Of a DNA stretch of 40,845 nt, positions 21,815-39,786 are shown in pieces. The DNA comes from Pseudomonas sp. GM78 (lineage in GTDB: Bacteria > Pseudomonadota > Gammaproteobacteria > Pseudomonadales > Pseudomonadaceae). The notes below the pieces were generated by a model. That model saw only the letters and a program-made list of their open reading frames with translations, had not been told where the DNA came from and made no database searches. The stretch is from positions 1-40,845 of the forward strand of contig NZ_AKJF01000139.1 of the NCBI RefSeq assembly GCF_000282475.1, read 5' to 3'. Each line of letters starts with the position of its first letter. Position 1 is the stretch's first letter. Made by a program: the position numbers and the translations under genes.

Positions 21815-21826
21815 GATCGTGGCGCC

Positions 21827-23020: not shown

Positions 23021-23034
23021 CGATGAACTCCGGT

Positions 23035-24117
23035 TTATTCGAAAACGATGACCGAGCGCGCCAGTTCACCGCGGCGCAACTCATCGAACGCCTCGTTGAT
23101 CTGATCCAGGCGGATGCGCTGGGAAATCATTTCGTCGAGCTTGAGCTTGCCGGCCATGTAGAAATCCACCAGGCGCGGCATGTCCACCGGGAAGCGGTTG
23201 GAACCCATCAGCGAGCCCTGGATGCGCCGCTCATGCAGCAACTGCAACGGATCGAGCTCGATTTTCAGGCCCGGCTTGAGCATGCCGATGACGGTGGCGG
23301 TGCCACCGCGCGCCAACATGGCGAACGCCTGCTCGGCGGTCTGCTTGAGGCCAATGCATTCGAAGGCATGGTGCACGCCGCCACGGGTCAGTTCCAGCAC
23401 TTGCCTGGCCGCATCACCGTCCCGGCCGTTGATCAGGTCGGTGGCGCCGAACTGGCGGGCCAGCTCCAGTTTCGAGTCGAGCATGTCGATGGCGATGATG
23501 CGCCCTGCCCCGGCCAGCGCCGCGCCGTTGATGGCGGCCAGGCCGATGCCGCCGCAACCGATCACGGCCACGGTCTCGCCCGGACGCACCTTGGCGGTAT
23601 TGAATACCGCACCGGTACCAGTGGTGACGGCGCAACCGAGCAGTGCGGCGCGGTCCAGCGGCATGTCACGGCGGATCGCCACGCAGGCGTTTTCGTGCAC
23701 CAGCATCTGCTCGGCGAACCCGGACAGGTTGACGAACTGTGGCATCGGTTTTTGCACGTAGGTCAGGCGCGGCTCTTCGTCCTTGTCGCGTTTGGTTTCC
23801 GGGGACACGCAGCGCGCCAGGTGGCCGGTCACGCAGTGTTCGCAATGCCCGCAGAACACCGTCAGGCAGGTGACCACGTGATCGCCGGGCTTGACCGAGC
23901 GCACTTCGCAGCCGACCTGTTCGACCACGCCGGCGGCTTCATGGCCCAACACCATGGGACCCGGGTAGGGAAATGAGCCGTCGATGACGTGCAAGTCCGA
24001 GTGGCAAACCCCCACGGCTTTGGTGCGGATCAACACTTCACGCGGACCCGGTTTGCTGATGCCCACTTCCTCGATGACCAGCGGGGCTCCAACCTGATGG
24101 AATACGGCAGCTTTCAT
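23035..24117 (-). CDS. Zinc-dependent alcohol dehydrogenase (class III-like MDR)
   Basis: 360 residues. The catalytic zinc site has Cys38 (GVCHSD) and His59 with Glu60 (GHEAAG). The structural zinc is held by Cys89, Cys92, Cys95 and Cys103 (CGHCEHCVTGHLARC). The Rossmann motif is VIGCGGIGLAAINGA. It oxidises a primary alcohol to the aldehyde with NAD, the first step before the adjacent aldehyde dehydrogenase. It is closer to the class III/RD2-like group than to tetrameric ethanol enzymes. It is the second gene of the operon, 27 nt after the aldehyde dehydrogenase. Substrate length and shape are not evident. Confidence 0.9.
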   Translation of the reverse strand: MKAAVFHQVGAPLVIEEVGISKPGPREVLIRTKAVGVCHSDLHVIDGSFPYPGPMVLGHEAAGVVEQVGCEVRSVKPGDHVVTCLTVFCGHCEHCVTGHLARCVSPETKRDKDEEPRLTYVQKPMPQFVNLSGFAEQMLVHENACVAIRRDMPLDRAALLGCAVTTGTGAVFNTAKVRPGETVAVIGCGGIGLAAINGAALAGAGRIIAIDMLDSKLELARQFGATDLINGRDGDAARQVLELTRGGVHHAFECIGLKQTAEQAFAMLARGGTATVIGMLKPGLKIELDPLQLLHERRIQGSLMGSNRFPVDMPRLVDFYMAGKLKLDEMISQRIRLDQINEAFDELRRGELARSVIVFE

Positions 24118-24144
24118 GGCAGTTCTCTCATTGATGATCGGGGT

Positions 24145-25497
24145 TCAGGCCGGGTTGGCCGCAGTGCGCAACACCGCTTTGGCGTGACTGAAGGTGCGGA
24201 AGCCATCGATGCCGTGATAGGCGCCCATGCCGCTCTGACCCACGCCACCGAACGGCAGGCTTTCGGTGCTGGCGTGGCTCAATACGCCATTGAGGGTCAC
24301 GCCGCCGGAACAGGTCCGGCTGAGCACCATGGCCTCTTCGGCGGCGTCGTTGCCGAAGTAGTACAGCGCCAACGGCCGCGGCCGGGCGTTGATCTGGGCG
24401 ATCACTTCAGTGATGTCGTCGTAGGGCTTGATGGGCAACAGCGGGCCGAAGATTTCGTCCTGCATGACTTGCAGATCGTTGGCGGGATCGCGCAACAGCG
24501 TCGGTACGATCTTGTTCAGCGTGGTCTGGCTGAAGTCTTCGGCCGCGGCGTTCAGCTCGATCAGCTCGACACCGGCCTCGCGCGCTTCACGCAGATAGCC
24601 CTGCAACCGCGCGAAATGCCGGGCGTTGATGATCGAGGTGTATTCGGGGTTGTCCCTGAGCGTCGGGAAGAATCTGGCCACCACCGCTTGTGCTACGCCG
24701 ATGAAGGCGTCGACCGATTCACGCGGCACGAACACATGGTCCGGTGCCACGCACAACTGACCGGCATTGAGCAGTTTGCCGATGACCACCTTGGCCACCG
24801 CATCGTTGAAGTCCGCCGTGCGTGAAATGATGGTGGGCGACTTGCCGCCCAGCTCCAGGGTCACCGGCACCAGGTTGTGCGCCGCCGCGCGCAACACGTG
24901 TTTGCCGACGCTGGTAGCGCCGGTGAACAGCAGGTGATCGAAGGGTTGAGCGCAAAAGGTCTGGCCAACGTCCGCGTCGCCCAGCACCACCGCCACTTCG
25001 TCTTCGGCATAGACCGAGCGGATCAGCCGGGCGATCAGCGCCGAGGTGTGCGGGGTGAATTCCGAAGGTTTGATCATCACCCGGTTGCCGGCCGCCAAGG
25101 CACCGGCCAGGCCGCTGAACACCATGTAGCCGGGTACGTTCCAGGCGGTGACGATGCCCACGACGCCCATCGGCTGGTACTGCACCCACGCTTCGCCGGC
25201 CCTGGCCTGACGTGGTTCAGGACGCATCCATTGAGCCAGTTCGGCCTTGGTCTGCTTGAGCGTGGCCAACGGCGACAACACTTCGCTACCTTTGGAGAAC
25301 CCCGGGCTGCGATGGCCGAAATCGGCGGTCAGGGCCTCGATGATCGACTGTTCGTGGTCGACCAGCAGGCCGATCGCCCGGTCGAGCAACTCACAGCGTT
25401 CTTCGAGGGTGAAAGGTTCGCGAGCGAGGAAGGCTGCTCGCTGTTTTTCCAGGAGGGTGCGGATGTCGGTACTCGGTGAACTCTCGATGGCGCTCAT
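24145..25497 (-). CDS. Aldehyde dehydrogenase, coniferyl-aldehyde-dehydrogenase-like (CalB family)
   Basis: 450 residues from the ATG at 25497; a start at 25563 or 25515 is also open but has poorer ribosome sites. Catalytic Cys249 lies in NAGQLCVAPDH, a CalB-family signature, with general base Glu215 in LELGGKSP and Asn120 in AWNVPG. It lacks the C-terminal oligomerisation length of class 1/2 enzymes. It converts the aldehyde made by the downstream alcohol dehydrogenase to a carboxylic acid, ready for CoA ligation. It is first in the operon, and a GCCACCC-N5-GGGTGGC-like operator is centred 101 bp upstream of its start. Confidence 0.88.
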   Translation of the reverse strand: MSAIESSPSTDIRTLLEKQRAAFLAREPFTLEERCELLDRAIGLLVDHEQSIIEALTADFGHRSPGFSKGSEVLSPLATLKQTKAELAQWMRPEPRQARAGEAWVQYQPMGVVGIVTAWNVPGYMVFSGLAGALAAGNRVMIKPSEFTPHTSALIARLIRSVYAEDEVAVVLGDADVGQTFCAQPFDHLLFTGATSVGKHVLRAAAHNLVPVTLELGGKSPTIISRTADFNDAVAKVVIGKLLNAGQLCVAPDHVFVPRESVDAFIGVAQAVVARFFPTLRDNPEYTSIINARHFARLQGYLREAREAGVELIELNAAAEDFSQTTLNKIVPTLLRDPANDLQVMQDEIFGPLLPIKPYDDITEVIAQINARPRPLALYYFGNDAAEEAMVLSRTCSGGVTLNGVLSHASTESLPFGGVGQSGMGAYHGIDGFRTFSHAKAVLRTAANPA

Positions 25498-25588: not shown

Positions 25589-25607
25589 GCCACCCGGATC
25601 AGGTGGC
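25589..25607. promoter_or_regulatory. Palindromic operator, copy 1 (before the aldehyde/alcohol dehydrogenase operon)
   Basis: GCCACCC-GGATC-AGGTGGC matches the island consensus GCCACCC-N5-GGGTGGC at 13 of 14 arm positions. On the minus strand a weak -10-like hexamer, AACCAT, begins 21 nt downstream (25562-25567). That is the same spacing as in the better copies, but the hexamer itself is poor. Confidence 0.65.
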
Positions 25608-25621
25608 TGACGCGCAAACGC

Positions 25622-25647
25622 ACAACGCCCTGCGAACAGGGCGTTGT
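25622..25647 (-). terminator. Hairpin terminator after the DUF1302-DUF1329 operon
   Basis: A perfect 11-bp stem, ACAACGCCCTG/CAGGGCGTTGT, has a four-base CGAA loop. It lies about 20 nt after the DUF1329 stop codon. The minus-strand side after it is only moderately T-rich, so termination may be partial or bidirectional. It separates the DUF1302/1329 operon from the operator of the next operon. Confidence 0.65.
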
Positions 25648-25666
25648 TTCAAGCGGGGGTCAATGG

Positions 25667-27034
25667 TCAGCGGATACCGGCGTTGCGCAGTGCCGACGGG
25701 GTGAAATCAGTCATCTTCGCGGTCATGCCATAGGTCGTTGCATGTTTGGCCTGGTTGGTCATCGCCAGCACGTTGTAGCGACCGGCAATCAGGTCATAGA
25801 TCCCGAGCATGGCGAAGTTGGGGGCGCCGCGCTCGTAATCGTTCATTGCATACCCTTCCGCCACCCGCCACAGCTGGCCACGCCCGTCATAGTGATCGAC
25901 TTCAGCCAGTTGCCAGGTGTCCTCGTCGAAGTACATGTCGCGCTTGGCGTAGACATGCCGCTGGCCTGGCTTGAGGGTGGCCTCGACGTGCCACACGCGG
26001 TGCAGCTCATAGCGGGTCAGGTCCTGGTTGATGTGCCCTGGCTTGATGATGTCGTCGTACTTCACTTTCGGCGACTGCAGGCGATAGTTGTTGTACGGGA
26101 TGTACAGTTCCTTCTTGCCCACCAGTTTCCAGTCATAACGATCCGGCGCACCGTTCATCATGTCGGTGTTGTCGGCGGTGCGCATGCCGTCGGAGCCGCT
26201 GCCCGGGCCGTCGTACGCCACCTGCGGCGCGCGTCGCACCCGGCGCTGGCCGGCGTTGTAGACCCACGCCAGGCGCGGTTCCTTGACCTGGTCGATCGTC
26301 TCGTGGATCAGGATCACACTGCCGGCCATGCGCGACGGCGCGGTGATTTCCTGTTTGTAGTAGTACAGGACGTTGTCGCCCTCGCCGCCCGATACGCCTT
26401 CCATCAATTGCGGGAACGCCAGCTTGTCGTCGTACTCGACGATGGAATAGGCACCGTTGGTTTGCGGTGCCGCCTGCGCCGCCTGGCGCTCCATGTTGCC
26501 GCCACGATAGCGGTTGGTGTGGTTCCAGTAGACTTCGACACCGCTCTTTGGAATCGGGAACGGGTAGTAGCGGGTTTGGCTGAAGTTCAGCAGGCCATTA
26601 CCGTCCGGGGTCAGCTCAGTGGTCACCGCGCTCTTCTTCGCCAGGTCGTAGATGTTCTGCGGCGCTGCGGCGGTGCGCTGGGTCTTGTATACGGGGATCT
26701 TGTAGCTGTCCGGGTAACGCTTGAACATCGCCAGTTGGCCCGGGGTCAGCTTGTCCTTGTACTGCTCGGCGTTGGCCGCGGTGATCACCAGTTGCGGCTT
26801 TTCGCCGGCGAAGGGGTCACCGAGAAAGCCGTTGTCGAGGGCCGCTGCGCCGGGCTTCAGGCCACCGTTCCAGGCCGGAATGCTGCCATTGGTATTGCCT
26901 TCTTTCTGGGCACCCAAGGGGGTCAGGGTGGTGCCCAGTTGAGCCGCCTCCTGCGGCGAAACAGCGGCCATCACACCACTGGCCAGCAACGACAGGCTAA
27001 GTGCGCTGGCGCGAAGAATAAAACGTGCGTTCAT
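25667..27034 (-). CDS. DUF1329 exported protein
   Basis: 455 residues with a signal peptide (about 1-23, ending VMA). The mature sequence starts with VSPQEAAQLGTTLTPLGAQK.. and carries NGSIPAWNGG and KPGQRHVYAKRDMYFDEDTWQLAEVDHYDGRG, typical of the DUF1329 family. Family members are almost always encoded beside a DUF1302 outer-membrane protein and next to catabolic operons for lipids, steroids or alkyl compounds. The fold resembles lipoprotein-carrier proteins such as LolA/LolB. I infer a periplasmic carrier that moves a hydrophobic substrate from the outer membrane. The start at 27034 has AGAGG upstream and is preferred over the open frame to 27061. Confidence 0.88.
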   Translation of the reverse strand: MNARFILRASALSLSLLASGVMAAVSPQEAAQLGTTLTPLGAQKEGNTNGSIPAWNGGLKPGAAALDNGFLGDPFAGEKPQLVITAANAEQYKDKLTPGQLAMFKRYPDSYKIPVYKTQRTAAAPQNIYDLAKKSAVTTELTPDGNGLLNFSQTRYYPFPIPKSGVEVYWNHTNRYRGGNMERQAAQAAPQTNGAYSIVEYDDKLAFPQLMEGVSGGEGDNVLYYYKQEITAPSRMAGSVILIHETIDQVKEPRLAWVYNAGQRRVRRAPQVAYDGPGSGSDGMRTADNTDMMNGAPDRYDWKLVGKKELYIPYNNYRLQSPKVKYDDIIKPGHINQDLTRYELHRVWHVEATLKPGQRHVYAKRDMYFDEDTWQLAEVDHYDGRGQLWRVAEGYAMNDYERGAPNFAMLGIYDLIAGRYNVLAMTNQAKHATTYGMTAKMTDFTPSALRNAGIR

Positions 27035-27060
27035 GTTCAGTTTCCTCTGGCAGGGTTGCA

Positions 27061-28893
27061 TCAGAAATTCACGCCGAAGCTGAGCGCAACGTAGTCGCGG
27101 TCGACGTTGGTATTGAAATCGCCACCGAAGTAATTGGTGTAGCTGAGGCTGGCGTTGTAGGTGTTCAGGTAATCGGCATCCACCCCGACGCTGACCGCCT
27201 TGGACCCTTCATCGAAGTTCGGGCCGTAGCCTTCCACGTCATGGGACCAGGCCAGGTTCGGCGACAGGTTGATGCCGGCGATCACGTTCGGGTAATCGAG
27301 CTTGCCGCGCAGGCGATAGCCCCAGCTGTTGCTGGTGTAGAAGCCATCGTCGTTGCATTCCTGCGCCGGGTTGCTGGCGGTCGGCGTGCCCACGGCGGTG
27401 CCTCGGCACGTGGCCGGGCCTGCTGCCCCTTGCAGTTCACCGGAACCGAACGCCGGGCTGCGGCCGAAACGCAGGTCGCTACCGTCGGCCTTGCCCAGGC
27501 CATTGATGTGGTTGTAACCCACCTCGCCGACCACGGTCAGGCGGCTGGCGCCCAGCACCTGATCGAAGAACTGGGTCGCGGTCACTTGCGCCTGGGTCAC
27601 TGGCATGCGTTTGTAGCCGTTGACTTCGGCCCCCAGGTTGCGACCGGCGAAACCGGTGGTGATCAGCGGCGAGGTGGCGCCGAAGGTCGCGGCGGACAGC
27701 AGGTCGGCGGTATTGAGTTGCAGTGGCATGTTCGGCCGGTAGCTGACTTCACCACCCAGGGACACGCCGGAAACGTTGGTCTGGAAGCTCAGGCCATACA
27801 GGCGGATATCTTCCGGATAGTCGATGAAATAGCGCACGCTGCGCGCCGAGGTCACACCCCCTGCCGCACTGGTCATCTGGTTGATGCTCAGGTACGGGCT
27901 GCGGCTGTGGTAGTTCATCGCGTAGGCGCCGAACTCGGTGTCGTTCGCTTCCGGCACGTACCAGCGCAAGGCCACGCCATACTGGCCGCTGTCGCGGGCA
28001 TCGTTGTCCTTCAGGCGCGGAATGAACGCATCGTCAGTGCCGGCGGCGATGGCGCCCAGGCCACCGGTATTACGCGCGGCACCCGGTGGCAGGTCGAGAC
28101 CGGCGACCACCAGCCGGTCATTGCAGCCCTGGGGTACGCCGTCGCTGCCGAAGAAGGTGCCGCAGTTGTCGACCACCGATTTGTCCCACTCCAGCTGGTA
28201 AAACGCTTCGGCGGTGATGTTGTCGGCCAGGCCCTGGGACACGTAGAGCAGGTTGACCGGAATCAGGCCTTCCTTCACTTCCGCACCCGGACGGCGCAGC
28301 GCGGCGACATCGACCGGGTTGATGCTGTTGATCGAGTTGCCGATGAACGTACTCTCGCCCCAGCTCACCACTTGCTTGCCCAGGCGCACGTTGCCGACCT
28401 GGTCGCCGATCGTGTAATTGTGGTAGACGAAACTGTCGAGGAACATCGCCCCCGACGACTTGGCCGCGCGGTCACGCCCCGCGTCGTCGATGTCGTAGAA
28501 CGGGCGACTTTCGCCCATCAGCTCAAAGTCATACCAGTACTTGCCGCGCACGAAGGCGCCGCTGTCGCCGTACTTCAGCTCCAGGTCATGCACGCCCTTG
28601 AAGATCTTCGAGAAGGTTTCACCCTTCTTGAAGTTCAAGCGGTTGTCGTCGGTGGTTCGCGAGGACGATTCGCCCCCCGTGACGCCCTGGGAGTTGAAGT
28701 TGGAAATGAACTGCTTGTCCGGATCGGTGGTGGACCAACTGGCCCCGACCGACAACGATGAATCGAAGCTGCCCTGAATCTCCCCGATGTTGAAATCAAC
28801 AGCGTGCGCCTGATTGCTCGCACAGGTGGCAACCATCACGGCGACGGCCAGCAGACTGGGCTGAAAGACTCCGCGCATTGTTGTTTTTGTCAT
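27061..28893 (-). CDS. DUF1302 outer-membrane protein
   Basis: 610 residues with a signal peptide (about 1-31, ending AHA). The mature part starts with VDFNIGEIQGSFDSSLSVGASW, the standard opening of DUF1302, and ends with a strand closing in Phe (YVALSFGVNF). The body is rich in Gly, Asn and aromatic residues and predicts a large beta-barrel. Together with the DUF1329 protein encoded 26 nt downstream it probably forms an uptake route for hydrophobic compounds. The gene starts an operon preceded by a variant copy of the island's palindrome at 28957-28974. Confidence 0.88.
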   Translation of the reverse strand: MTKTTMRGVFQPSLLAVAVMVATCASNQAHAVDFNIGEIQGSFDSSLSVGASWSTTDPDKQFISNFNSQGVTGGESSSRTTDDNRLNFKKGETFSKIFKGVHDLELKYGDSGAFVRGKYWYDFELMGESRPFYDIDDAGRDRAAKSSGAMFLDSFVYHNYTIGDQVGNVRLGKQVVSWGESTFIGNSINSINPVDVAALRRPGAEVKEGLIPVNLLYVSQGLADNITAEAFYQLEWDKSVVDNCGTFFGSDGVPQGCNDRLVVAGLDLPPGAARNTGGLGAIAAGTDDAFIPRLKDNDARDSGQYGVALRWYVPEANDTEFGAYAMNYHSRSPYLSINQMTSAAGGVTSARSVRYFIDYPEDIRLYGLSFQTNVSGVSLGGEVSYRPNMPLQLNTADLLSAATFGATSPLITTGFAGRNLGAEVNGYKRMPVTQAQVTATQFFDQVLGASRLTVVGEVGYNHINGLGKADGSDLRFGRSPAFGSGELQGAAGPATCRGTAVGTPTASNPAQECNDDGFYTSNSWGYRLRGKLDYPNVIAGINLSPNLAWSHDVEGYGPNFDEGSKAVSVGVDADYLNTYNASLSYTNYFGGDFNTNVDRDYVALSFGVNF

Positions 28894-28956
28894 GCGGTTT
28901 CCCCGGTTAAGGATGACGTGGTGAGAGCCCCTGCCAGCGAGGCTCCCGTAAGGTCC

Positions 28957-28974
28957 TCACACCCGAATGGGTGA
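28957..28974. promoter_or_regulatory. Palindromic operator, copy 2 (variant, before DUF1302)
   Basis: CACCC-GAAT-GGGTG with flanking A and T/A pairs forms a palindrome like the other copies, but the spacer is four bases rather than five and the outer G/C pair is lost. Its centre is about 74 bp upstream of the DUF1302 start. No clear -10 lies at the usual distance, so this is the least certain member of the set. Confidence 0.45.
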
Positions 28975-29031
28975 TCTGGATAAAGCGTTTTCCTGTGACA
29001 TTTGATGCCGCTCCTACAGGTCCACTACCCA

Positions 29032-30234
29032 TCAATGGCCTGTGGTTTTGCCGTAAAGCGTCACCACACAAGCACCACCCAGGCCGAGGTTGTGCGCCAT
29101 GGCCAGGCGCGCCCCGTCGACCTGTCGCTGCTCGGCATTGCCGCGCAGTTGCTGGGTCAGTTCAAAACATTGCGCCAGGCCGGTGGCACCCAGCGGGTGG
29201 CCCTTGGAAAGGAGGCCGCCGGACGGATTGATCACGACTTGCCCGCCGTAGGTGTTGTCGCCGTCCATGACGAATTTTTCCGCTCCACCTTCAGGGCAAA
29301 AGCCCAGCGACTCGTAGCAGATCACTTCGTTCTGGGCGAAACAGTCGTGCAGTTCGCAGACATCGATGTCCTGCGGACCGACACCGGCCTTCTCGTAGAC
29401 CTGGCCCACGGCGGCGTGGGTCATGTGCGTGCCGACCCAATCGAGCAGCGACGGCTTGTCGAAGTTGAAAGATTGCGGGGTGTCGGTGGTCATCGCTTGG
29501 GCGACGATCTGCACGTCACGGCGCAGGCCATGCTTTTTCGCAAAACGCTCGGACACCAGGATCGCCGCAGCGCCACCACAGGTCGGCGGGCAAGCCATGA
29601 GGCGGGTCATGACACCTGGCAGGATCACCGGGTCGTTCATCACGTCTTCGACGCTGAGCACCTTGCGAAACAACGCGAGCGGGTTGTTGGCTGCATGGCG
29701 GCTGGCCTTGGCGCGCACTGCGGCGAAGGTTTCCATTCTGGTGCCGTATTTGTGCATGTACTCACGCCCGGCACCACCAAAGGTACGGATGGCCTGAGGC
29801 ATGCCATCCATATCAGCGGTGAGGCCGCGCAGGATCGGCAGGAAACGCTCGCGGGTCGGCGGGCGGTCGTCCCAATGGGATTTCAGGGCGCCGGCCTGCA
29901 TCTGCTCGAAGCCCACCGCCAGCACGCAGTCGACGGAACCGGATTCGATGGCCTTGCGCGCCAGGTACAACGCGGTGGAGCCGGTGGAGCAGTTGTTGTT
30001 GACGTTGACCACCGGGATCCCGGTCATGCCGACTTCGTACAGCACGGTCTGGCCGCATGTGGAGTCGCCGTAGACGTAACCGGCATACGCCTCCTGGACC
30101 AGACTGTAGTCAATTCCCGCATCGGCCAGGGCGCGGCGCACCGCTTCGGCGCCCATCTGCACGTAGGTCGGGCTCTCGCTGGGCTTGCGGAACGGGATCA
30201 TGCCGACACCGGCCACCAGTACTTTTTCGCTCAT
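29032..30234 (-). CDS. SCP-x-type thiolase / lipid-transfer-like acetyltransferase (copy A)
   Basis: 400 residues. Nucleophile Cys82 lies in NNNCSTGS, with His296 in the SCP-x motif ELHDCFAQNE and His346 in SKGHPLGATG. The C-terminal GGACVVTLY lacks the CxG of classical thiolases, as in SCP2-thiolases. It would split a 3-ketoacyl-CoA, a branched or bulky one in many family members. The start at 30234 follows AGGTG. It lies 23 nt after the acyl-CoA dehydrogenase gene in the same operon. A second copy, about two thirds identical by eye over the first 120 residues, occurs at 37671-38855. No DUF35 partner gene is present. Confidence 0.88.
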   Translation of the reverse strand: MSEKVLVAGVGMIPFRKPSESPTYVQMGAEAVRRALADAGIDYSLVQEAYAGYVYGDSTCGQTVLYEVGMTGIPVVNVNNNCSTGSTALYLARKAIESGSVDCVLAVGFEQMQAGALKSHWDDRPPTRERFLPILRGLTADMDGMPQAIRTFGGAGREYMHKYGTRMETFAAVRAKASRHAANNPLALFRKVLSVEDVMNDPVILPGVMTRLMACPPTCGGAAAILVSERFAKKHGLRRDVQIVAQAMTTDTPQSFNFDKPSLLDWVGTHMTHAAVGQVYEKAGVGPQDIDVCELHDCFAQNEVICYESLGFCPEGGAEKFVMDGDNTYGGQVVINPSGGLLSKGHPLGATGLAQCFELTQQLRGNAEQRQVDGARLAMAHNLGLGGACVVTLYGKTTGH

Positions 30235-30257
30235 GGAATCACCTGGAAAATAAGAGG

Positions 30258-31397
30258 TCACAACTGGCGCGCGATCAGCTCGCGCAACACTTCACTGGTG
30301 CCGCCGAAAATCCGCGTCACGCGCATGTCGACGAAGGCGCGGGCGATCGGGTACTCGAGCATGTAGCCGTAGCCACCGTGCAGCTGGACCATGTCGTCAA
30401 TGCACTTGCACAGGGTTTCGGTGGCCAGGAGCTTGGCGATGGCCGACTCCTGTACCGTGAGGCGCCGGCGCATGTGTTCGCCGATGTAGTGATCGATGGT
30501 CAGGCGCACGGCCGTGGCCTGGGCCTTGATGTCGGCGAGTTTGAATTTGCTGTTCTGGAAGTCCCACACGGTCTGGTTGAAGGCCCTGCGGTCCTTCACG
30601 TACTCGACGGTCTGTTCCAGCAGGCGTTCGAGTTTGGCGGCGCTGTACAACGCGATCACCAGGCGCTCCTGCGGCAACTCTTCCATCAAGTGCATGAAGC
30701 CTTTGTTTTCTTCGCCCAGCAGGTTGCCCACCGGCACGCGCACGTTGTCGAAGAACAGCTCGGCGGTGTCGGCGGCGTGCTGGCCGACCTTGTCCAGCTT
30801 GCGCCCGCGGCGGAAACCTTCGCGGTCGCACTCGACCATGATCAGGCTGCAACCCTTGGCCCCTGCACTGGGGTCGGTCTTGCAGACGACCACCACCATG
30901 TCGCAGGTCAGGCCGTTGCTGATGAAGGTCTTGCTGCCGTTGATCACCCACTCGTCACCGTCGCGCACGGCGCTGGTGCGGATCGCCTTGAGGTCGGAAC
31001 CGGTGCCCGGCTCGGTCATCGCGACGGCCAGGATGGTTTCGCCGGAGCAGATTTTCGGAAGCCATTTGTGCTTCTGCTCTTCGGTGCCCAGGCGCACGAT
31101 GTACGGCGCGACGATGTCGGAGTGCACACCCAGGCTCCAGCCTGAAACCCCGGCGCGGTAAAGCTCTTCGATCAACACCGCCGAGTGCCCGAAATCGCCG
31201 CCACCGCCACCGTATTCGGTCGGCACGGTGAGGCACAGCAGGTTGTGGCGACCAGCCTTGAGCCAGGTCTCGCGGTCGACCTGTCCGGCTTCGTCCCACT
31301 GCGCCTGCTTGGGCAGGCATTCACGCTCGAAAAAACGCCGCGCGGTTTCACGCAGCATTTCGTGGTCTTCGCGGTAGACGGTACGGTTGATGTGCAT
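30258..31397 (-). CDS. Long-chain-type acyl-CoA dehydrogenase (copy A)
   Basis: 379 residues. Motifs match mitochondrial LCAD: MTEPGTGSDLKAI, ELPQERL with catalytic Glu244, and QLHGGYGYMLEYPIARAFVD. The C-terminal segment is GGTSEVLRELIA, where the MCAD-type Glu is replaced by Gly. It makes trans-2-enoyl-CoA and reduces ETF. The start at 31397 follows GGAG; the long upstream frame to 31589 runs through a REPIN and is rejected. It aligns without gaps to the copy at 36503-37642, with about 302 of 379 residues identical by hand count (about 80%). It is first in its operon, behind a palindromic operator centred 88 bp upstream. Confidence 0.92.
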   Translation of the reverse strand: MHINRTVYREDHEMLRETARRFFERECLPKQAQWDEAGQVDRETWLKAGRHNLLCLTVPTEYGGGGGDFGHSAVLIEELYRAGVSGWSLGVHSDIVAPYIVRLGTEEQKHKWLPKICSGETILAVAMTEPGTGSDLKAIRTSAVRDGDEWVINGSKTFISNGLTCDMVVVVCKTDPSAGAKGCSLIMVECDREGFRRGRKLDKVGQHAADTAELFFDNVRVPVGNLLGEENKGFMHLMEELPQERLVIALYSAAKLERLLEQTVEYVKDRRAFNQTVWDFQNSKFKLADIKAQATAVRLTIDHYIGEHMRRRLTVQESAIAKLLATETLCKCIDDMVQLHGGYGYMLEYPIARAFVDMRVTRIFGGTSEVLRELIARQL

Positions 31398-31475
31398 CGG
31401 ACTCTCCAGTGGATGGCCAGGCAAGGCTTGCGCCTGGTTCGTGAGTCCAATGTATTGAGCGGGGTGGGGATTCTC

Positions 31476-31494
31476 GCCACCCGGATCGGGTAGC
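31476..31494. promoter_or_regulatory. Palindromic operator, copy 3, with promoter (before acyl-CoA dehydrogenase copy A)
   Basis: GCCACCC-GGATC-GGGTAGC matches the consensus in 13 of 14 arm bases. On the minus strand TACATT (31449-31454) begins 21 nt after it and fits a -10 hexamer. The operator centre would then be at about -43, overlapping the -35 place, where no good -35 hexamer exists. That is the layout of an activator-dependent promoter. Confidence 0.7.
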
Positions 31495-31541
31495 GAATGG
31501 CGGCGAGGTTGAAAAGCGGAATTGCGGATGTACTCGTTCCC

Positions 31542-31643
31542 TGTAGGAGCAAAGCTTGCTCGCGATAGAGGTCCGTACAACGCGATCATTCAGACAGCGC
31601 GCGTTATCGTTCACGACCATCGCGAGCAAGCTTTGCTCCTACG
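31542..31643. repeat. REPIN (two facing REP elements)
   Basis: The 25-bp arms 31542-31566 and 31619-31643 are reverse complements in 24 positions (core GTAGGAGCAAAGCTTGCTC). They lie in the 274-bp space between the acyl-CoA ligase stop and the acyl-CoA dehydrogenase start. They probably form a stem that could terminate the ligase transcript. Confidence 0.9.
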
Positions 31644-31671
31644 GGGGAATGGATTCAGATGTGTGGCGGTG

Positions 31672-33228
31672 TCAGCTCACGCCTCGGTCCTTGCCGGCCC
31701 AGAACGGTTCGCGCAGGTCACGCTTGAGCACCTTGCCCGCACCCGACAAGGGCAAGGTCGTGCGGAACTCCACCGATTTGGGGGTCTTGTAGCCGGCGAT
31801 CTGGCGGCGGCAGTGCTCGATGATCTGCGCGCCAGCGACTTCGTTGTCCGACTTGAGCACGACCACGGCGTGCACCGCCTCCCCCCACTGCGCGCAGGGA
31901 ATGCCGATCACCGCACAGGCGGCGACGGCCGGGTGACTGGCAATCGCACTTTCGACCTCCCCCGAATACACGTTCTCGCCACCGCTGACGATCATGTCCT
32001 TGAAGCGGTCGACGATGTAGAGATAGCCGTCATCGTCCATGTAGGCGCCGTCGCCGGTGTGCATCCAGCCGCCGCGCAGGGCCTGGGCGGTTTCTTCGGG
32101 CTTATTCCAGTAGCCGAGCATGATGTTCGGGCCACGGACCAGGACTTCGCCGACCGTACCGCGTGGGACTTCGTTGTCCTGTTCGTCGACGATGCGCACC
32201 GTGACCCCCAGTCCGGGACGGCCTGCCGAGCGCAAGCGGCCATTGGCGATGCCCTCGGCGCTGTGGTTTTCCGGGCCGTTGGCGCTGATCGGCGGGGCGG
32301 CTTCGGTCATGCCATAACCTTGGGTGAACTCGACGTTCGGCAAGGCTTTCAGGGCCAGTTCCAGCAACGGCACGGCAATCGGCGAGGCGCCATAGGTCAG
32401 GCTGCGCAGGCAGCCGAGGTCATGCCTGGCAAACTCGGGGTGCATGATCAACGCCTGCAGCATGGTCGGCACGATCAGGATGTCGGTGATCCGCTCACGC
32501 TCGATGGTTTGCATCACCGCCAGCGCATCGAAGGCCGGGACGAAGATGCTCGGCAAACCGAGCAGCGAGATCAGGATTACCCGCGACAGCGCCGCAAGGT
32601 GAAACATCGGAGCGATATGCAAAGTCAGCGCATCCGCCGGTACCGGTACATCGGCCGCGCGGGCCACCGCCGCCGACCACAGGTTCATGTGCGATTGCAT
32701 CACGCCTTTCGGCCGGCCGGTGGTGCCGCCGGTGTACAGGATGCTGGCCAGGTCGTCGCCACCACGGAAGGCGTCGTCGACAGGCTCGGCGTCACGGATC
32801 AGTCGTTCGTAGGAGAGCATGCCGTCGGGGGCCGGGCCGTCTCCGACATGGATCAACAACGGTCGCACCCTGGCCGTGCTGGCGATCGCCTCGGCCATGG
32901 GCAGGAAGGTGTCGTCGATCATCAGGATGCGCGTGTCGCAATCGTCCAGGGAGTAGACGATTTCCGCCACGCTCCAGCGGATATTGACCGGGTTGACCAC
33001 GCCGCCGCCCCACCAGGTGGCCAGGTAGTACTCGAGAAAACGGTCGGAGTTCAAACCGAGCAGGCCCACGCGGTCGCCGGTTGCCATACCCAGTCGCTGC
33101 AGGGCGCCAGCAAGACGGGCTACGCGGTCGGCCAACTGAGCATAGGTGTGGCGCCGGTCGTGGAAAACCGTTGCCAGGGCATGGGGGCGCTGCTGCAAGA
33201 CACGGTGCAGTCCTTGGGTCAGATACAT
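31672..33228 (-). CDS. Acyl-CoA synthetase (AMP-forming ligase)
   Basis: 518 residues. The ANL-family motifs are complete: YTGGTTGRPKGVMQSH for the phosphate loop, QGYGMTEAAP, WMHTGDGAYMDDDGYLYIVDR with the hinge Asp, and PLSGAGKVLKRDL with the catalytic C-terminal Lys. It activates a carboxylic acid to its CoA ester, linking the aldehyde dehydrogenase product to the acyl-CoA dehydrogenases. The start at 33228 follows AGGAAAACCACC. It stands alone on the minus strand, divergent from the regulator gene, with the strongest operator copy exactly midway. Chain length or ring specificity is not evident. Confidence 0.92.
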   Translation of the reverse strand: MYLTQGLHRVLQQRPHALATVFHDRRHTYAQLADRVARLAGALQRLGMATGDRVGLLGLNSDRFLEYYLATWWGGGVVNPVNIRWSVAEIVYSLDDCDTRILMIDDTFLPMAEAIASTARVRPLLIHVGDGPAPDGMLSYERLIRDAEPVDDAFRGGDDLASILYTGGTTGRPKGVMQSHMNLWSAAVARAADVPVPADALTLHIAPMFHLAALSRVILISLLGLPSIFVPAFDALAVMQTIERERITDILIVPTMLQALIMHPEFARHDLGCLRSLTYGASPIAVPLLELALKALPNVEFTQGYGMTEAAPPISANGPENHSAEGIANGRLRSAGRPGLGVTVRIVDEQDNEVPRGTVGEVLVRGPNIMLGYWNKPEETAQALRGGWMHTGDGAYMDDDGYLYIVDRFKDMIVSGGENVYSGEVESAIASHPAVAACAVIGIPCAQWGEAVHAVVVLKSDNEVAGAQIIEHCRRQIAGYKTPKSVEFRTTLPLSGAGKVLKRDLREPFWAGKDRGVS

Positions 33229-33317
33229 GGTGGTTTTCCTGTGAATTATTGTTGTCAGGTAAGGCCGTAGCGCCCCTATTCTTGTGCTTTCCAGTAGATC
33301 AATCCGCTCTATCGCGA

Positions 33318-33340
33318 CCACCACCCACATCGGGTGGTGG
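33318..33340. promoter_or_regulatory. Palindromic operator, copy 4 (between ligase and regulator genes)
   Basis: The longest copy, with perfect 9-bp arms CCACCACCC/GGGTGGTGG around ACATC. Its centre is about 101 bp from both divergent start codons. Toward the ligase, TCTACT (33293-33298) begins 21 nt from the 19-bp core, as in the other copies. Toward the regulator a separate -10-like TACACT (33378-33383) lies further off with a poor -35. This would suit activation of the ligase and autoregulation of the regulator. Confidence 0.75.
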
Positions 33341-33430
33341 CCGCCAAAGACAGAGTCATGACGCCCATGGTCTGGGTTACACTCGAAGGGATTCGACGCA
33401 TTCACAAAACAAAAAAGAATCGGAAAGCCC

Positions 33431-36235
33431 ATGGACAAACACCGCAAGTCCGATGCATCGGACACCCTTGCCAGCCAGGTCTACAGTGCGGTCCAGTCTC
33501 CGATCGTCAGCACCAAACTGATTCCACCGCGCGGTGCCGGACGCCTGATTTCCCGTGAGCGCCTGCAGGAGAAAATGCTCAAGGCCCGCCGTCAGCGCTG
33601 CATCGTGATCAAGGGGCCGGCCGGTTGCGGCAAGACCTCCACGCTGATCGCCTGGCGCCAGGGATTGCTTGCGCTGGGTTTCGATGTGGCGTGGCTGACG
33701 CTGTCTGCCGACGACAATGAGCTGACGCGTTTCCTCGACTACTTGCTCGCCAGCCTCGGCCAGATCGACCCGGACCTGGTACGCGAAGCCACCCAGATGG
33801 AAGGTCGCGGTATCGACAGTGAGGCGGTGGAGCGCACCGTCATCACCCTGGTGCGCAGTATGGCCAGGCGCACTCGCGAACTGGTGCTGGTGCTCGATGA
33901 CTTGCACCACCTGACCGACGTCGGCATTCACCAGGCCCTGCAATGGCTGATCGACTACGCCCCCGCCAATCTGCACCTTGCCCTCGTATCGCGCAGCACC
34001 GTGCCCCTGTCGCTGGCGCGCTTGCGTGGCCAGGAGCTGGTGCTGGAACTGAACCTGCGCGATTTGCGCTTTACCCCGACCGAGTCCGAGCAGTTTCTCA
34101 AGGCACAGCTGGGCGACATCAGCGCCCGCGATGCCAAGCTGATGCATGAACTGACCGATGGCTGGGTCGCCGGGCTGCAGTTGCTCGCTGTCAGCCGCAA
34201 GAAAAATCACCCGGCCGTCGCCAGCACCGACCAGGTGCGGGACGACCAGGCGTTCGCAAGGTTTTTCGAAGTCGAGGTGCTGTCCCATCTGTCACCGACG
34301 GACCTGGACCTGATGCTGCTGATGGCGGTCTGCAACCGTTTTTGCGCCTCGCTGTGCGCCGCCCTCAGCGGCAACCCGCAGGCAGTCGGCGAGGCCAATG
34401 CGCTTCTCGCACGCCTGGAACGGGATAACCTGTTCCTGATCCCCGTGGACAGCGCCGCACGGGAAACCTGGTATCGCCTGCACCCGCTTTTGCGTGAAAC
34501 GCTGCTCAAATACTTCGATTCGCGCAGCGCGGCCGAACAACAGGCGGTGCATGCGCGGGCATGGGCCTGGTTTCGTGATCACCAGCACCTGGATGAGGCG
34601 GTGCACCACGCCGTCATGGCCGGCGATCCCGATGGCGCCGCCGACCTGGTGGAGCAACAGGCCGAGGCACTGTATGCCCATGGTGACTTGCGGATGTTGA
34701 TCGAGCTGGTTCGGCTGTTGCCTGTCGAGCAAGTGCAGGCACGGGTAAAGCTGCGCATCCTCAAGACCCGGATGCAACTCTATGCCCGGGATTTCGTCGC
34801 CTGCGCCAAGAGCCTGGATCAACTGTTCCACGACGTCCCTGACAGTGACGTGCACGATCGCTTCATGATTGCGTTACTGCGTGCCTCCCTGGCGTTGCAG
34901 CGCGATGACACGGACGCGGCGATGACGGTGCTGCCGCAACTGCTCTCCCCACCACCGGACAGCAACAGCGTTGCCATCGGCTCATGCGCCAATATCCTGT
35001 CCTGGCTTTACATGCACCGGGGCGAATACGAAAAGGCACGCCAGGTGCAACTCGACCGTCCCCTGCTGCTGATCCATGGCGAACCCCTTCTTGGAACCAC
35101 CGCCGGCAGCTTGCAAGGTCGCTGCATGATTGGCTTGAGCCACGCCCTTGAAGGCCAGATGCAGCAGGCGGAACGGGTTTACCGGGACGTGATGCATGAG
35201 GCTGCGCATTGCGGCAAGGCCGGTGCCGACGCGACTTACCTCTCCGCCGCGCTGCTGGGCGAGGTGCTCTACGAAACCAATGATGTCGACGGGGCGTTCA
35301 AGCTGCTGTCGGGCTGGGTCGACATCCTGGAGCGGATCTCGATTCCCGATTCGGTCCTGCGCGTGATGCAGGTGCTGTGGAATGTGCAATGGCTGGCGGG
35401 CAATCACCAGGAAGCCCTGGCCTATGTCGAACGGCTCGACGAGTACGCGATCAAACTCGGACTCGAGCGCCTGCAAGCCTACTGCCTGACCTGGCAGGTG
35501 CGCTGGCTGATGATTCTCGGCGAGCATGCGCAGGCCCGCGCCAAGCTTGAGCGCCTGGAAGCCATCGATGCGCGCCATCCCGATGCCGGGCACAGTGCCC
35601 TCAAGGAAATCCACATCCTGGCGGAGAATGCGCGGGCACGCTGGCAAATTCAGCAAGGCGACCTCGACGGCGCGTTAGCGCGTATCGAACAACTGATCGA
35701 AACCTGTGAACGGCACCGCCGCCAGCTCGGTACCGTGCGCCTGCTGGTCCTCAGTGGCGTGATCGAATCCCAGCGCGGCAACGCGGATGCCGCCCGCGGC
35801 CACGTCATGCAAGCGCTGCGGCGCGGGCAACGCTACGGGTTGCTGCGCACCTTGCTCGACGCCCACCCGGACGCCCTGCAACTGATCGCTGACATTGCGA
35901 GCCAGGAAAACCTGGACCCGGTGCTGGCGTTCTACGTCGAGCGCCTGCAGGCGGCCCAGGTGTCGGCCCCCACCGTGCCGAGCGACAAGCCCTGCCCCGC
36001 CACCACGGGCAAACCCCTCACCGCCGGCATGGAGCCGTTGAGCGAACGGGAAATCGAAGTGGTGCGCCTGCTCGCCCAGGCCCTCCCCAACAAGAAAATC
36101 GCCCGTGCGCTGGGGCTGTCCCCCGAAACCGTGAAATGGCACCTGAGCCATATCTACAGCAAGCTGGGCGTCAACAGCCGCGATGAAGCGGTGGCGCGGG
36201 TGCGCGACCTTGAATCGCAGGGCGATCAAATCTAA
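33431..36235 (+). CDS. MalT-type LuxR-family (LAL) transcriptional activator
   Basis: 934 residues. An N-terminal STAND ATPase carries Walker A GPAGCGKT (62-69) and Walker [11 protein letters not shown] (about 150-160). A long helical TPR-like sensor region (about 400-840) follows. The C-terminal LuxR HTH is at about 868-925 ([43 protein letters not shown]). The family usually requires ATP and an inducer to oligomerise and activate sigma-70 promoters. It is the only regulator gene inside the catabolic island. It faces the ligase gene across a 202-bp space centred on the best palindrome. I infer that it binds the five palindromes and senses the substrate or its CoA ester. A perfect REPIN follows. 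Confidence 0.9.
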
Positions 36236-36243
36236 GCCCCCCC

Positions 36244-36345
36244 AATCCCTGTGGGAGCGGGCTTGCCCGCGAAGAGGCCGGTACATTCAACATCATCGGT
36301 GACTGACACACCGCTATCGCGGGCAAGCCCGCTCCCACAGGGATT
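36244..36345. repeat. REPIN with perfect 29-bp arms
   Basis: The arms 36244-36272 and 36317-36345 are exact reverse complements over 29 bases (core GTGGGAGCGGGCTTGCCCGC). The repeat starts nine bases after the regulator's stop codon, so its hairpin is the likely end of that transcript. It belongs to the main REP family of fluorescent pseudomonads. Confidence 0.93.
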
Positions 36346-36377
36346 GTGCTGTTTGGTCAATCGCTGATTCTTGCCCC

Positions 36378-36396
36378 GCCACCCACCCCGGGTGGC
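36378..36396. promoter_or_regulatory. Palindromic operator, copy 5, with promoter (before the right-hand beta-oxidation operon)
   Basis: GCCACCC-ACCCC-GGGTGGC has perfect 7-bp arms. TATCGT (36418-36423) begins 21 nt after it and fits a -10 hexamer, putting the operator centre near -43. The GTG start at 36503 is 116 bp from the centre. Confidence 0.75.
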
Positions 36397-36502
36397 GTTT
36401 GCCCAAGCCCCCCACCCTATCGTAACCCTCAGTCCAAAGGCGCAACGCGCGCCTGCGTCGAAGCCTGGCCCGAGCCGGCCCGTGATCATTGAGGAGTCTT
36501 GC

Positions 36503-37642
<1,140 letters not shown>

Positions 37643-37670
37643 CCCTCTAAAACAACAAAGGAACATCACG

Positions 37671-38855
37671 ATGAGCAACAAGGTATTCGTGGCTGGCGTC
37701 GGCATGATCCAGTTCAAGAAACCGGGGACCAACGCGCCCTACGACGTCATGGGTGAACAGGCGATTCGCCAGGCCCTGGCCGACTCGGGACTGGACTTCA
37801 ATGACATCCAGCAAGCCTATGCCGGCTATGTCTACGGCGACTCCACCTGCGGCCAGAAAGCCCTTTACCGCGTAGGCATGAGCGGCATACCGCTGGTCAA
37901 CGTCAACAACAACTGCGCCACCGGTTCCAGCGCCCTGTTCCTCGCCCGTCAGGCCGTGCAGAGCGGCGCGGTCGAGTGCGCCCTGGCCTTTGGCTTCGAG
38001 CACATGAACCCCGGCGCACTGAAATCCGCCTGGACCGACCGCGCCCCGGCCACCGAACGCGCCCTGCTGCTGGCCAACGAACTGATCGGCATGCCGGACC
38101 TGCCCAATGCGATTCGCCAGTTCGGCGGCGCGGGCTTTGCGCACATGCAGAAGTACGGCACCCGCCTGGAAACCTTCGCCAGGATCCGCGCCAAGGCCAG
38201 CCGGCATGCGGCCAACAACCCGCTGGCGGTGTTTCGCAACGTGGTCAGCACCGAGGAAGTCCTGGCCGCGCCGATGTTGTGGGAAGGCGTGATGACCCGC
38301 CTGATGGCTTGCCCGCCCACCTGCGGCGCCGCTGCCGCCATCGTGGTGTCCGAGGCGTTCGCGAAAAAACACGGCCTGCGCACCGATGTGTTGATGGCCG
38401 GCCAGGCGCTGACCACCGATCTGCCGAGCACCTACGACGCCAGGGACATGATCCGCGTGGTCGGGTTCGACATGACGCGCATGGCCGCCGACATCGCCTA
38501 CAACCAGGCCGGCATCGGCCCCAAAGACATCGACGTGATCGAACTGCACGACTGCTTCGCGCAAAACGAACTGCTGACCTACGAAGGCCTGGGTTTGTGC
38601 GAAGAAGGCGGTGGCGAGCGTTTGGTCAACGATGGCGACAACACCTATGGCGGCGAATGGGTGACCAACCCGTCTGGCGGCCTGCTCTCCAAAGGCCACC
38701 CACTGGGCGCCACCGGCCTGGCCCAGTGCTTTGAACTGACCCACCAGTTGCGCGGCACCGCCGAGCAGCGCCAGGTGCACGACGCGCGTGTCGCTGTGCA
38801 GCACAACCTCGGCCTGGGCGGCGCCTGCGTGGTGACCGTGTACCAGAAGAACTGA
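37671..38855 (+). CDS. SCP-x-type thiolase / lipid-transfer-like acetyltransferase (copy B)
   Basis: 394 residues. Nucleophile Cys82 (NNNCATGS), the ELHDCFAQNE motif and SKGHPLGATG are all present. It cleaves a 3-ketoacyl-CoA as the last step of the cycle. It is about two thirds identical to copy A, with the strongest conservation at the active site and C-terminus. It lies 28 nt after acyl-CoA dehydrogenase copy B, so both copies of the dehydrogenase/thiolase pair keep the same gene order. This copy, unlike copy A, is followed by hydratase and dehydrogenase genes that complete beta-oxidation. Confidence 0.9.
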   Translation: MSNKVFVAGVGMIQFKKPGTNAPYDVMGEQAIRQALADSGLDFNDIQQAYAGYVYGDSTCGQKALYRVGMSGIPLVNVNNNCATGSSALFLARQAVQSGAVECALAFGFEHMNPGALKSAWTDRAPATERALLLANELIGMPDLPNAIRQFGGAGFAHMQKYGTRLETFARIRAKASRHAANNPLAVFRNVVSTEEVLAAPMLWEGVMTRLMACPPTCGAAAAIVVSEAFAKKHGLRTDVLMAGQALTTDLPSTYDARDMIRVVGFDMTRMAADIAYNQAGIGPKDIDVIELHDCFAQNELLTYEGLGLCEEGGGERLVNDGDNTYGGEWVTNPSGGLLSKGHPLGATGLAQCFELTHQLRGTAEQRQVHDARVAVQHNLGLGGACVVTVYQKN

Positions 38856-38884
38856 CGCGCCTGCCAGGCAAAGGAGCCACCCAG

Positions 38885-39325
38885 ATGATCGACAAACAAC
38901 ACATCGGCAGACAGCTGCCGACTTTCCTCGTCACCGCCGAAGCCGGGCAACTGCGTTTCTTCGCCAAGGCCACCGGGGAAACCAACCCGATCTACTTCGA
39001 CGAGCAAGCCGCCCGCGATGCCGGTTACCCCAACCTGCCGTTGCCGCCGACCTTCCTGTTCTCGCTGGAATTGCAGATCCCGTCGAACGCCTGGCGCGAC
39101 GAACTGGGGATCGTCACCGCACGCATCCTCCACGGCGAGGAGTCGTTCCGTTATCACCGCATGGCCTATGCCGGCGACACCCTGCGCTTCGACGTGCGCA
39201 TCGCCGACATCTACGACAAGAAAGCCGGCGCCCTGGAATTCGTGGTGCGCGAAACCCGAGTCACCAATCAGCACGGTGAGCACGTCGCGGACCTGCGCAG
39301 CGTGCTCGTGCAGCGCAACAGCTGA
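38885..39325 (+). CDS. MaoC-like hydratase, N-terminal-type hotdog subunit
   Basis: 146 residues forming one hotdog domain of the MaoC_dehydrat_N (FAS1-like) type: ATGETNPIYFDEQAARDAGYPNLPLPPTFLF. This half has lost the Asp/His hydratase pair of the R-hydratase motif (TGETNPIY in place of SGDxNxIH). In ChsH1/ChsH2- and HadAB-like enzymes such a subunit pairs with a catalytic one. The next gene, 14 nt away, supplies that catalytic partner. Together they would hydrate the 2-enoyl-CoA to a 3-hydroxyacyl-CoA. AGGAG precedes the ATG. Confidence 0.85.
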   Translation: MIDKQHIGRQLPTFLVTAEAGQLRFFAKATGETNPIYFDEQAARDAGYPNLPLPPTFLFSLELQIPSNAWRDELGIVTARILHGEESFRYHRMAYAGDTLRFDVRIADIYDKKAGALEFVVRETRVTNQHGEHVADLRSVLVQRNS

Positions 39326-39339
39326 AGCGGAGAACCCTG

Positions 39340-39756
39340 ATGAACGCGATAAGCCTGGAAAAAATCAATATCGGCGACAGCCTGCCAGCCCTGGCACTGC
39401 CACCGATCAACCGCACCACCCTGGCGCTGTTTGCCGGTGCGTCGGGGGATCACAACGCCATCCATATCGACACCGATTACGCGCGCCGCGCCGGCATGCC
39501 CGATGTGTTCGCCCACGGCATGTTGTCGATGGCCTACCTCGGCCGCCTGCTGACCCAGTGGGTCGATCAACGCCAACTGCGCGAGTTCGGCGTGCGCTTT
39601 CTCGGCATTACCCACCTGGCCCACCAGATCACCTGCACGGGCGCCGTGGTCGAGCGCTTCGAGGTCGATGGCGAGCAACGGATCAAGGTCGAAGTGCGCA
39701 CCACCAATCAGTACGGCGAGACCAAAATCGTTGGCGACGCCGTGATCGCCCTGTAA
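39340..39756 (+). CDS. MaoC-like hydratase, catalytic hotdog subunit
   Basis: 138 residues. It contains the hydratase-2 motif FAGASGDHNAIHID with catalytic Asp37 and His42, followed by FAHGMLSMAYLGRLL. It would form a heteromer with the preceding N-terminal-type subunit and hydrate enoyl-CoA, replacing a crotonase. R-specific hydration is usual in this family, which fits the SDR encoded next. Split two-gene MaoC enzymes are known for bulky substrates such as steroid side chains. The spacing of 14 nt before and 30 nt after fits one operon. Confidence 0.87.
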   Translation: MNAISLEKINIGDSLPALALPPINRTTLALFAGASGDHNAIHIDTDYARRAGMPDVFAHGMLSMAYLGRLLTQWVDQRQLREFGVRFLGITHLAHQITCTGAVVERFEVDGEQRIKVEVRTTNQYGETKIVGDAVIAL

Positions 39757-39786
39757 ACACACCCCATCATTGAGGAGCAATACCCC

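Follow-up and report, generated by a model that had tools for sequence, protein, structure and literature searches.

The stretch of DNA analyzed here (the window, 40,845 nucleotides from Pseudomonas sp. GM78) holds a catabolic island arranged around the gene of a large LuxR/MalT-type regulator, LuxR1, and a preliminary description had pointed out that copies of a palindrome, GCCACCC-N5-GGGTGGC, recur in front of its operons. The question raised by this locus is which protein reads this palindrome, and to what effect. Based on the comparison of the window with related loci and with 298 genomes of the genus, we consider it very probable that the palindrome is the operator of LuxR1 and serves class II activation of the island operons; the regulon reading of the preliminary description is, to this extent, strongly supported by the comparison. 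A MalT-type activator would thereby gain a precise, testable predicted operator together with a target list, offering a way into an undefined pathway that includes a DUF1302 protein, thiolases of the SCP-x-like type and a sulfatase. We infer that this pathway perhaps processes, via acyl-CoA steps, an alcohol or acid that is sulfated, branched or alicyclic.

Palindrome sites and genes of the window

Four copies of the palindrome are present in the window with zero to two mismatches (starting at 25589, 31476, 33320 and 36378; Table 1), and the copy between the ligase and regulator genes, when its core is extended, reads by eye as a perfect 9-N5-9 palindrome. The variant announced at 28957-28974, upstream of the DUF1302 and DUF1329 genes, also exists, displaced by one nucleotide (28958-28975). 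The further statement that no such palindrome stands elsewhere in the window does not hold at two mismatches, a level at which 25860-25878, within the DUF1329 gene, also matches; this match is probably a coding coincidence, and similar intragenic matches are seen in loci L019 and L072. Inverted repeats of the form 'TGTAGGAGC...GCTTGCTCGCGA', noticed by eye at 31540-31645 and 36248-36345, adjoin two of the putative operators and resemble Pseudomonas REP elements. As to gene content, the thiolase and DUF1302 genes of genome G131 are separated by genes for an enoyl-CoA hydratase and for two acyl-CoA dehydrogenases with partial domains (L055:13128-16106), which the window does not have at 28878-29032.

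Table 1. Genes of the island and candidate operator sites in the window, in order of position.
Feature	Position	Strand	Remarks
ALDH - Zn-ADH - two acyl-CoA dehydrogenases (PimC-like, PimD-like) operon	20672-25497	-	
Candidate operator of the ALDH operon	25589-25607	-	1 mismatch to GCCACCC-N5-GGGTGGC; -10-like AACCAT 25567-25562
DUF1329 (PF07044)	25667-27031	-	
DUF1302 (PF06980)	27061-28878	-	
Variant candidate operator upstream of DUF1302/DUF1329	28958-28975	-	CACCC-N4-GGGTG, 4-nt spacer; -10 position TGGCAG
Thiolase, 'lipid-transfer protein' (SCP-x-like) type	29032-30234	-	
Acyl-CoA dehydrogenase	30258-31397	-	
Candidate operator of the acyl-CoA dehydrogenase/SCP-x-like thiolase unit	31476-31494	-	1 mismatch; -10-like TACATT 31454-31449
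AMP-forming acyl-CoA ligase	31672-33228	-	
Candidate operator common to acyl-CoA ligase (-) and MalT-like regulator (+)	33318-33340	.	Core 33320-33338, 2 mismatches; ligase-side hexamer TCTACT 33298-33293; regulator-side TACACT 33378-33383
LuxR1, 934-aa LuxR/MalT-type regulator	33431-36235	+	ATPase - MalT TPR - GerE HTH; proposed binder
Candidate operator of the + strand operon	36378-36396	+	0 mismatches; -10-like TATCGT 36418-36423
Acyl-CoA dehydrogenase - SCP-x-like thiolase - FAS1-DH-like - MaoC - SDR operon	36503-40611	+	

At up to one mismatch the window contains three palindrome places, against 0.015 expected, and at up to two mismatches five, against 0.7 expected, and in both cases none of 200 shuffles reached the observed count. 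At up to three mismatches the nine places show no significant enrichment over the 6.2 expected (20 of 100 shuffles reach nine), and this unremarkable count, together with the richness in C/G palindromes of several genomes that lack LuxR1, would fit a product of chance, or the kind of hairpin, terminator or REP-type element that a GC-rich genome may contain. Such an origin appears extremely improbable for sites that lie upstream of gene starts, are conserved against diverged flanks and are tied to one regulator (see below); because they are located in front of promoters and in the gaps of divergent gene pairs, we rejected the terminator, REP and hairpin reading.

LuxR1 itself has the composition of the LuxR/MalT (LAL) family, with AAA_16, TPR_MalT and GerE domains recognized by Pfam in its 934 residues, and a Walker A motif, GPAGCGKT, can be seen by eye close to the N-terminus in the translated window DNA. 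The MalT chain 8bob matches residues 26-434, and the NCBIfam model PRK04841 scores 291.8 bits (best stretch, residues 25-536), below its cut-off of 537 bits, which places LuxR1 outside MalT proper. Its nearest relatives, 81-91% identical, all come from records named Pseudomonas.

Linkage of the palindrome to LuxR1 across genomes

Eleven of the 298 genus genomes (own genome counted) encode a LuxR1 relative of 60% identity or more, and a related-locus search provided 38 loci with LuxR1 relatives (L001-L038). A scan of this genome and its relatives, which the preliminary description had proposed, finds the exact places clustered at the regulator: the 11 genomes contain 53 exact CCACCYN5GGGTGG places, of which 45 are no more than 25 kb away from LuxR1, against about 0.07 expected from the off-island density (the kinship of these related genomes being ignored in the count, so that its p-value is no independent evidence). 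The same pattern turns up in 211 genomes of the 298, most of them without LuxR1; being so widespread, this loose pattern is specific only in its clustering and context, and its bare presence says little. Five genomes without a LuxR1 ortholog (G247, G175, G282, G191 and G252) even have several exact CCACCCN5GGGTGG places, with differing spacers and mostly scattered genome-wide, and another regulator may be behind these.

Each of the 22 loci from close Pseudomonas relatives (L001-L019, L022, L032 and L037) has a site with at most two mismatches beside the regulator. In 40 loci (the window, L054 and L001-L038), 90 of the 92 places found at up to one mismatch are followed by a gene start at a distance of 250 bp or less, and in the remaining two (L010 and L017) the regulator had been over-extended by the gene caller. 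Between orthologous promoters the core has a pairwise identity of 0.91-1.00, compared with 0.29-0.68 for the 30 nt upstream (figures from which we dropped the L016 'sulfatase' row, a two-mismatch place inside another gene).

The claim that LuxR1 is the only regulator of the island is valid for the window; in relatives, a second LuxR-type gene (LuxR2, missing from the window; for example L055:7422-9596, L058:5664-8126 and L038:1496-3985) and, in four of the 11 LuxR1 genomes, a TetR gene share the island. LuxR2, in which no ATPase domain was detected in the two proteins scanned, has a site upstream of its own gene and could bind the same palindrome in relatives. Hence the palindrome might be the operator of LuxR2 or TetR, with LuxR1 a mere neighbor, which we judge very unlikely. 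The sites are kept in the own genome, where LuxR2 has no match at E 1e-60, and in G271, where LuxR2 homologs are only 35-46% identical and lie away from the island, and they persist in the seven genomes (the own genome and six others) from which TetR is absent. Since the sites survive without a close LuxR2 in two of the 11 genomes and without TetR in seven, both proteins are dispensable to them. In the two genomes examined that have LuxR2 homologs (46-47%) and no LuxR1 ortholog, G015 and G264, there are zero and one exact places, respectively, and no site at up to one mismatch is present in sister regions that lack LuxR1 and have a LuxR2 homolog of 38-44% identity. On these sequence comparisons, LuxR1 is the best candidate for the protein that binds the palindrome.

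The sister regions just mentioned (L074-L078) carry DUF1302 homologs 72-95% identical to that of the window, and in none of the five is there an exact CACCC-N5-GGGTG or a 19-mer at up to one mismatch; under another regulator, then, islands with outer-membrane genes up to 95% identical lack the palindrome at this level. Looser matches do occur, namely an intergenic CACCC-N4-GGGTG before the CaiB gene of L074 (absent from L075, L076 and L078) and one two-mismatch match each in L076 and L078. The paralog regions of the 44% class have one one-mismatch place each in L063 and L068, and two-mismatch matches in L065 and L068; specificity is thus not explained by the HTH alone. Genome G264, labelled as the same species, has no LuxR1 ortholog (best match 31%), and in a sister island it carries a DUF1302 that is 95% identical, which indicates that the window island may vary within the species.

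Outside Pseudomonas, a betaproteobacterial/MAG set of 12 loci (L023-L031 and L033-L035, from Cupriavidus, Variovorax, Paraburkholderia, Caballeronia and one MAG) contains 10 places at up to one mismatch, against 0.27 expected, with no match at up to two mismatches in L028 and one loose match only in L033. Among the 24 site-orientations of this set (all those intergenic, with at most two mismatches and a start within 250 bp, unselected by hexamer), 15 show the A2+T6 pattern of a -10-like hexamer when read 21 or 22 nt past the core, and five more have CTTACT or TCTACT at that place; before the AMP-binding ligase genes, TATCCT is found at exactly 21 nt in L025, L026, L027, L030 and L034, and TATGCT in L031. 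In most of the other loci of the set the site precedes the ligase or CaiB gene and not the regulator, and autoregulation is therefore not generally kept.

The expectation that hits would be confined to the island was borne out as regards their clustering; it failed for a sulfatase promoter and, probably, for a divergon of CaiB and exported-protein genes. The sulfatase site lies at a contig end of the own genome (C142) and is one of the eight exact places beyond 25 kb, and in relatives the corresponding site is found about 7-9.5 kb after the LuxR1 start. Apart from the window and C142, the own genome has four one-mismatch places, three of them inside genes; the fourth (C144:3189, L097) is intergenic, in a conserved context, between a CaiB-family gene and the gene of a 572-aa protein in which Pfam recognizes nothing at 1e-8. 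In G089, a homolog of this protein (77% identity) has a site 70 bp upstream, and in G027 a site lies 150 bp before a CaiB-family gene. By this comparison the divergon is probably an unlinked member of the regulon, which probably extends past one island. The 570-576 aa family (no Pfam hit; 74-77% identical in three genomes: L097, L080:5567-7279 and L068:221-1951) has such palindromes upstream, with a CaiB-family gene adjacent in two of the three cases, and its N-terminus resembles a signal peptide.

Position of the palindrome relative to the promoters

In the window, the -10-like hexamers TACATT, TATCGT and TCTACT begin exactly 21 nt past the core, with a poor AACCAT for the ALDH operon, all as first described. 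The palindrome is conserved at this distance before orthologous operons: 100 of 101 orthologous Pseudomonas promoter rows have a -10-like hexamer 21-22 nt past the core, a count that shows how constant the spacing is but was not made blind (for each promoter class, the -10 patterns were chosen after inspection). By promoter, the hexamer is found at 21 or 22 nt in 23/23 rows for the acyl-CoA dehydrogenase, 23/23 for the ligase or CaiB side, 22/22 for the second dehydrogenase, 19/20 for the sulfatase, 8/8 for ALDH and 5/5 for LuxR2, the single miss being the L016 row already mentioned. A center near -43, as had been proposed, thus applies to the directions of the target operons; toward the regulator, TACACT or TACATT begins 39 nt past the core in all 23 rows, which corresponds to a center at about -61.

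The same spacing is prevalent among 33 more divergent promoters, which were hand-chosen (three weak places, L027:9090, L031:9460 and L060:1071, were omitted, as were near-duplicates and copies in the regulator direction). In 20 of the 33 the A2+T6 pattern is found at offset 21, compared with 0-4 at every other offset, and the mean TATAAT match is 3.15 at offset 21 and at most 1.88 elsewhere. In L020, L021 and L038, where sites were unselected by hexamer, four of 10 site-orientations have A2+T6 at 21 or 22 nt, and the other six comprise three that read TCTACT at 21 nt and three regulator-direction copies; in 13 paralog regions without LuxR1 the pattern is found at 21 or 22 nt in one of seven. 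No clear -35 box was identified, the mean TTGACA match being 1.76 at the 17-bp position versus a background of 1.38, and the top matches (2.64 and 2.45) fall at 20- and 19-bp spacing, within the core itself.

At the level of sequence, the promoters show what would be expected of class II activation: a predicted center near -41 to -43, a near-fixed distance to the -10-like hexamer and no clear -35 box. Large LuxR-type regulators can also repress, as does SCO6993, which binds palindromes (PMC9628970), and the palindrome could by analogy be a repressor site or silencer. We find this very unlikely, since a center at about -43, over the -35 position of promoters without a clear -35 box, is typical of class II activation, and a repressor site need not keep a 21-22 nt phasing to a -10-like hexamer. 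In the activator reading, we infer that LuxR1, with its inducer present, would bind in dimeric form, using its C-terminal LuxR-type HTH, centered at about -43, where the bound protein would compensate for the missing -35 element. This would switch on the ALDH/ADH, DUF1302/DUF1329, acyl-CoA dehydrogenase/thiolase, acyl-CoA ligase and second acyl-CoA dehydrogenase/thiolase operons, as well as the sulfatase gene on the other contig, and luxR1, for which the site it shares with the ligase gene would be centered at about -61, may also be autoregulated.

The variant before DUF1302 deserves separate description. A CACCC-N4-GGGTG-like sequence with at most one mismatch is found at -93 to -97 in 10 of 17 upstream regions, and four others (L019, L032, L064 and L058) keep its promoter-proximal CGGGTG. 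In L055 and most close relatives TAGCAT stands 21 nt past the variant, at the position of TGGCAG in the window.

Candidate sister operators and known systems

The own genome has a second catabolic island, on contig C13 (L071 and L079), with its own MalT-like regulator (29-32% identical to LuxR1), a DUF1302 homolog about 70% identical and a sulfatase homolog 53% identical. This island has a palindrome of its own, CCCCCTC-N5-GAGGGGG, at the same distance to TATCGT as the putative LuxR1 operator. Exact CCCCTCN5GAGGGG occurs at five places in the own genome, four of them on C13, and at none with the reversed-pattern control. It was found in six of the 10 genomes searched; its absence from G002, G173, G015 and G144, whose regulators are 30-33% identical to LuxR1, means that not every such regulator uses the second operator. 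A hexamer at 21 or 22 nt (TATCGT included) accompanies 25 of the 43 site-orientations of this palindrome that have a start no more than 300 bp away, four further sites without a nearby start standing outside this count, and 18 of 20 promoters hand-picked by orientation. A third, looser C6/G6 set (for example GCCCCCC-N5-GGGGGGC; G285, G214, G243 and L028) accompanies the 44%-class paralogs, and as an operator set it is suggestive only.

The regulator tree, built without 17 loci whose regulators are near-duplicates or over-extended, separates the LuxR1, C13 and third clades. The recognition helix reads TVKWH in the LuxR1 clade (with Tyr in L057) and TVKWN in the C13 clade, and we hypothesize that this His/Asn position matters for operator specificity. 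The third class also has His, so that this residue alone cannot explain the third set. In L057 and L059, whose LuxR1 has TVKWYLRH in the recognition helix, one half-site is altered in the site after the regulator. For the 26%-identical regulator of the sister islands, a palindrome search found no shared 7-N5-7 operator in L074-L076 and L078. A conserved ACTCGTTCGAGCGATTG block followed by GGCTAGCC was noticed by eye between this regulator and CaiB (L074:16001-16280, also in L075 and L078), perhaps the regulator's own site. We lean slightly toward a general picture in which, a MalT-type family of Pseudomonas and Burkholderiales controls sister acyl-CoA catabolic islands and every clade recognizes a C/G-rich 7-N5-7 palindrome of its own, always at one promoter position. 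Sister pathways in one cell would then be insulated by the divergence of their operators, accompanied by changes in the recognition helix. If true, this would provide a natural series for the specificity code of LuxR-type HTHs, and the presence of two operators of the same geometry in one genome makes HTH specificity and the insulation of paralogous regulons directly testable.

With regard to known systems, no description of the palindrome motif or of its regulon, and no paper treating DUF1302 together with LuxR, was found in the literature searched, as judged by titles and abstract starts. Papers containing the strings GGGTGG and CCACCC alongside LuxR and Pseudomonas do exist. LuxR1 differs from the regulators of LuxR/LuxI quorum sensing in that no autoinducer-binding domain was found in it by Pfam scan at E 1e-5. 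LuxR/TraR boxes are centered at about -42, and the letters of the lux box differ from those of the island palindrome. Dyad symmetry is common to both, the LuxR site being a 20-bp inverted repeat (PMC9628970). LuxR1 shares with MalT of Escherichia coli a like ATPase - TPR - LuxR HTH build, and the MalT box, given in that paper as a short GGA[TG]GA, is unlike the 19-bp palindrome of the island.

The closest parallel is with AlkS of Pseudomonas putida GPo1, a LuxR/MalT-type activator of a catabolic cluster for hydrophobic compounds, acting at promoters PalkB and PalkS2, whose operator is a 20-bp inverted repeat upstream of the target promoter and of its own promoter (PMC8784404). Both systems have an inverted repeat beside the -35 position of target promoters and near the regulator promoter, a likeness of arrangement; in the island, with the hexamer taken as the -10 element, the core would end at -34, and one site lies between ligase and regulator. 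LuxR1 would have more target operons than AlkS, and no alkane hydroxylase is among the putative targets seen (ALDH, ADH, acyl-CoA dehydrogenases, thiolases, ligase, DUF1302/DUF1329 and sulfatase). The proposed mechanism would accordingly be of a known kind, with AlkS as its precedent, and the operator sequence, the target list and the series of sister operators appear to be new as far as the titles and abstract starts searched go.
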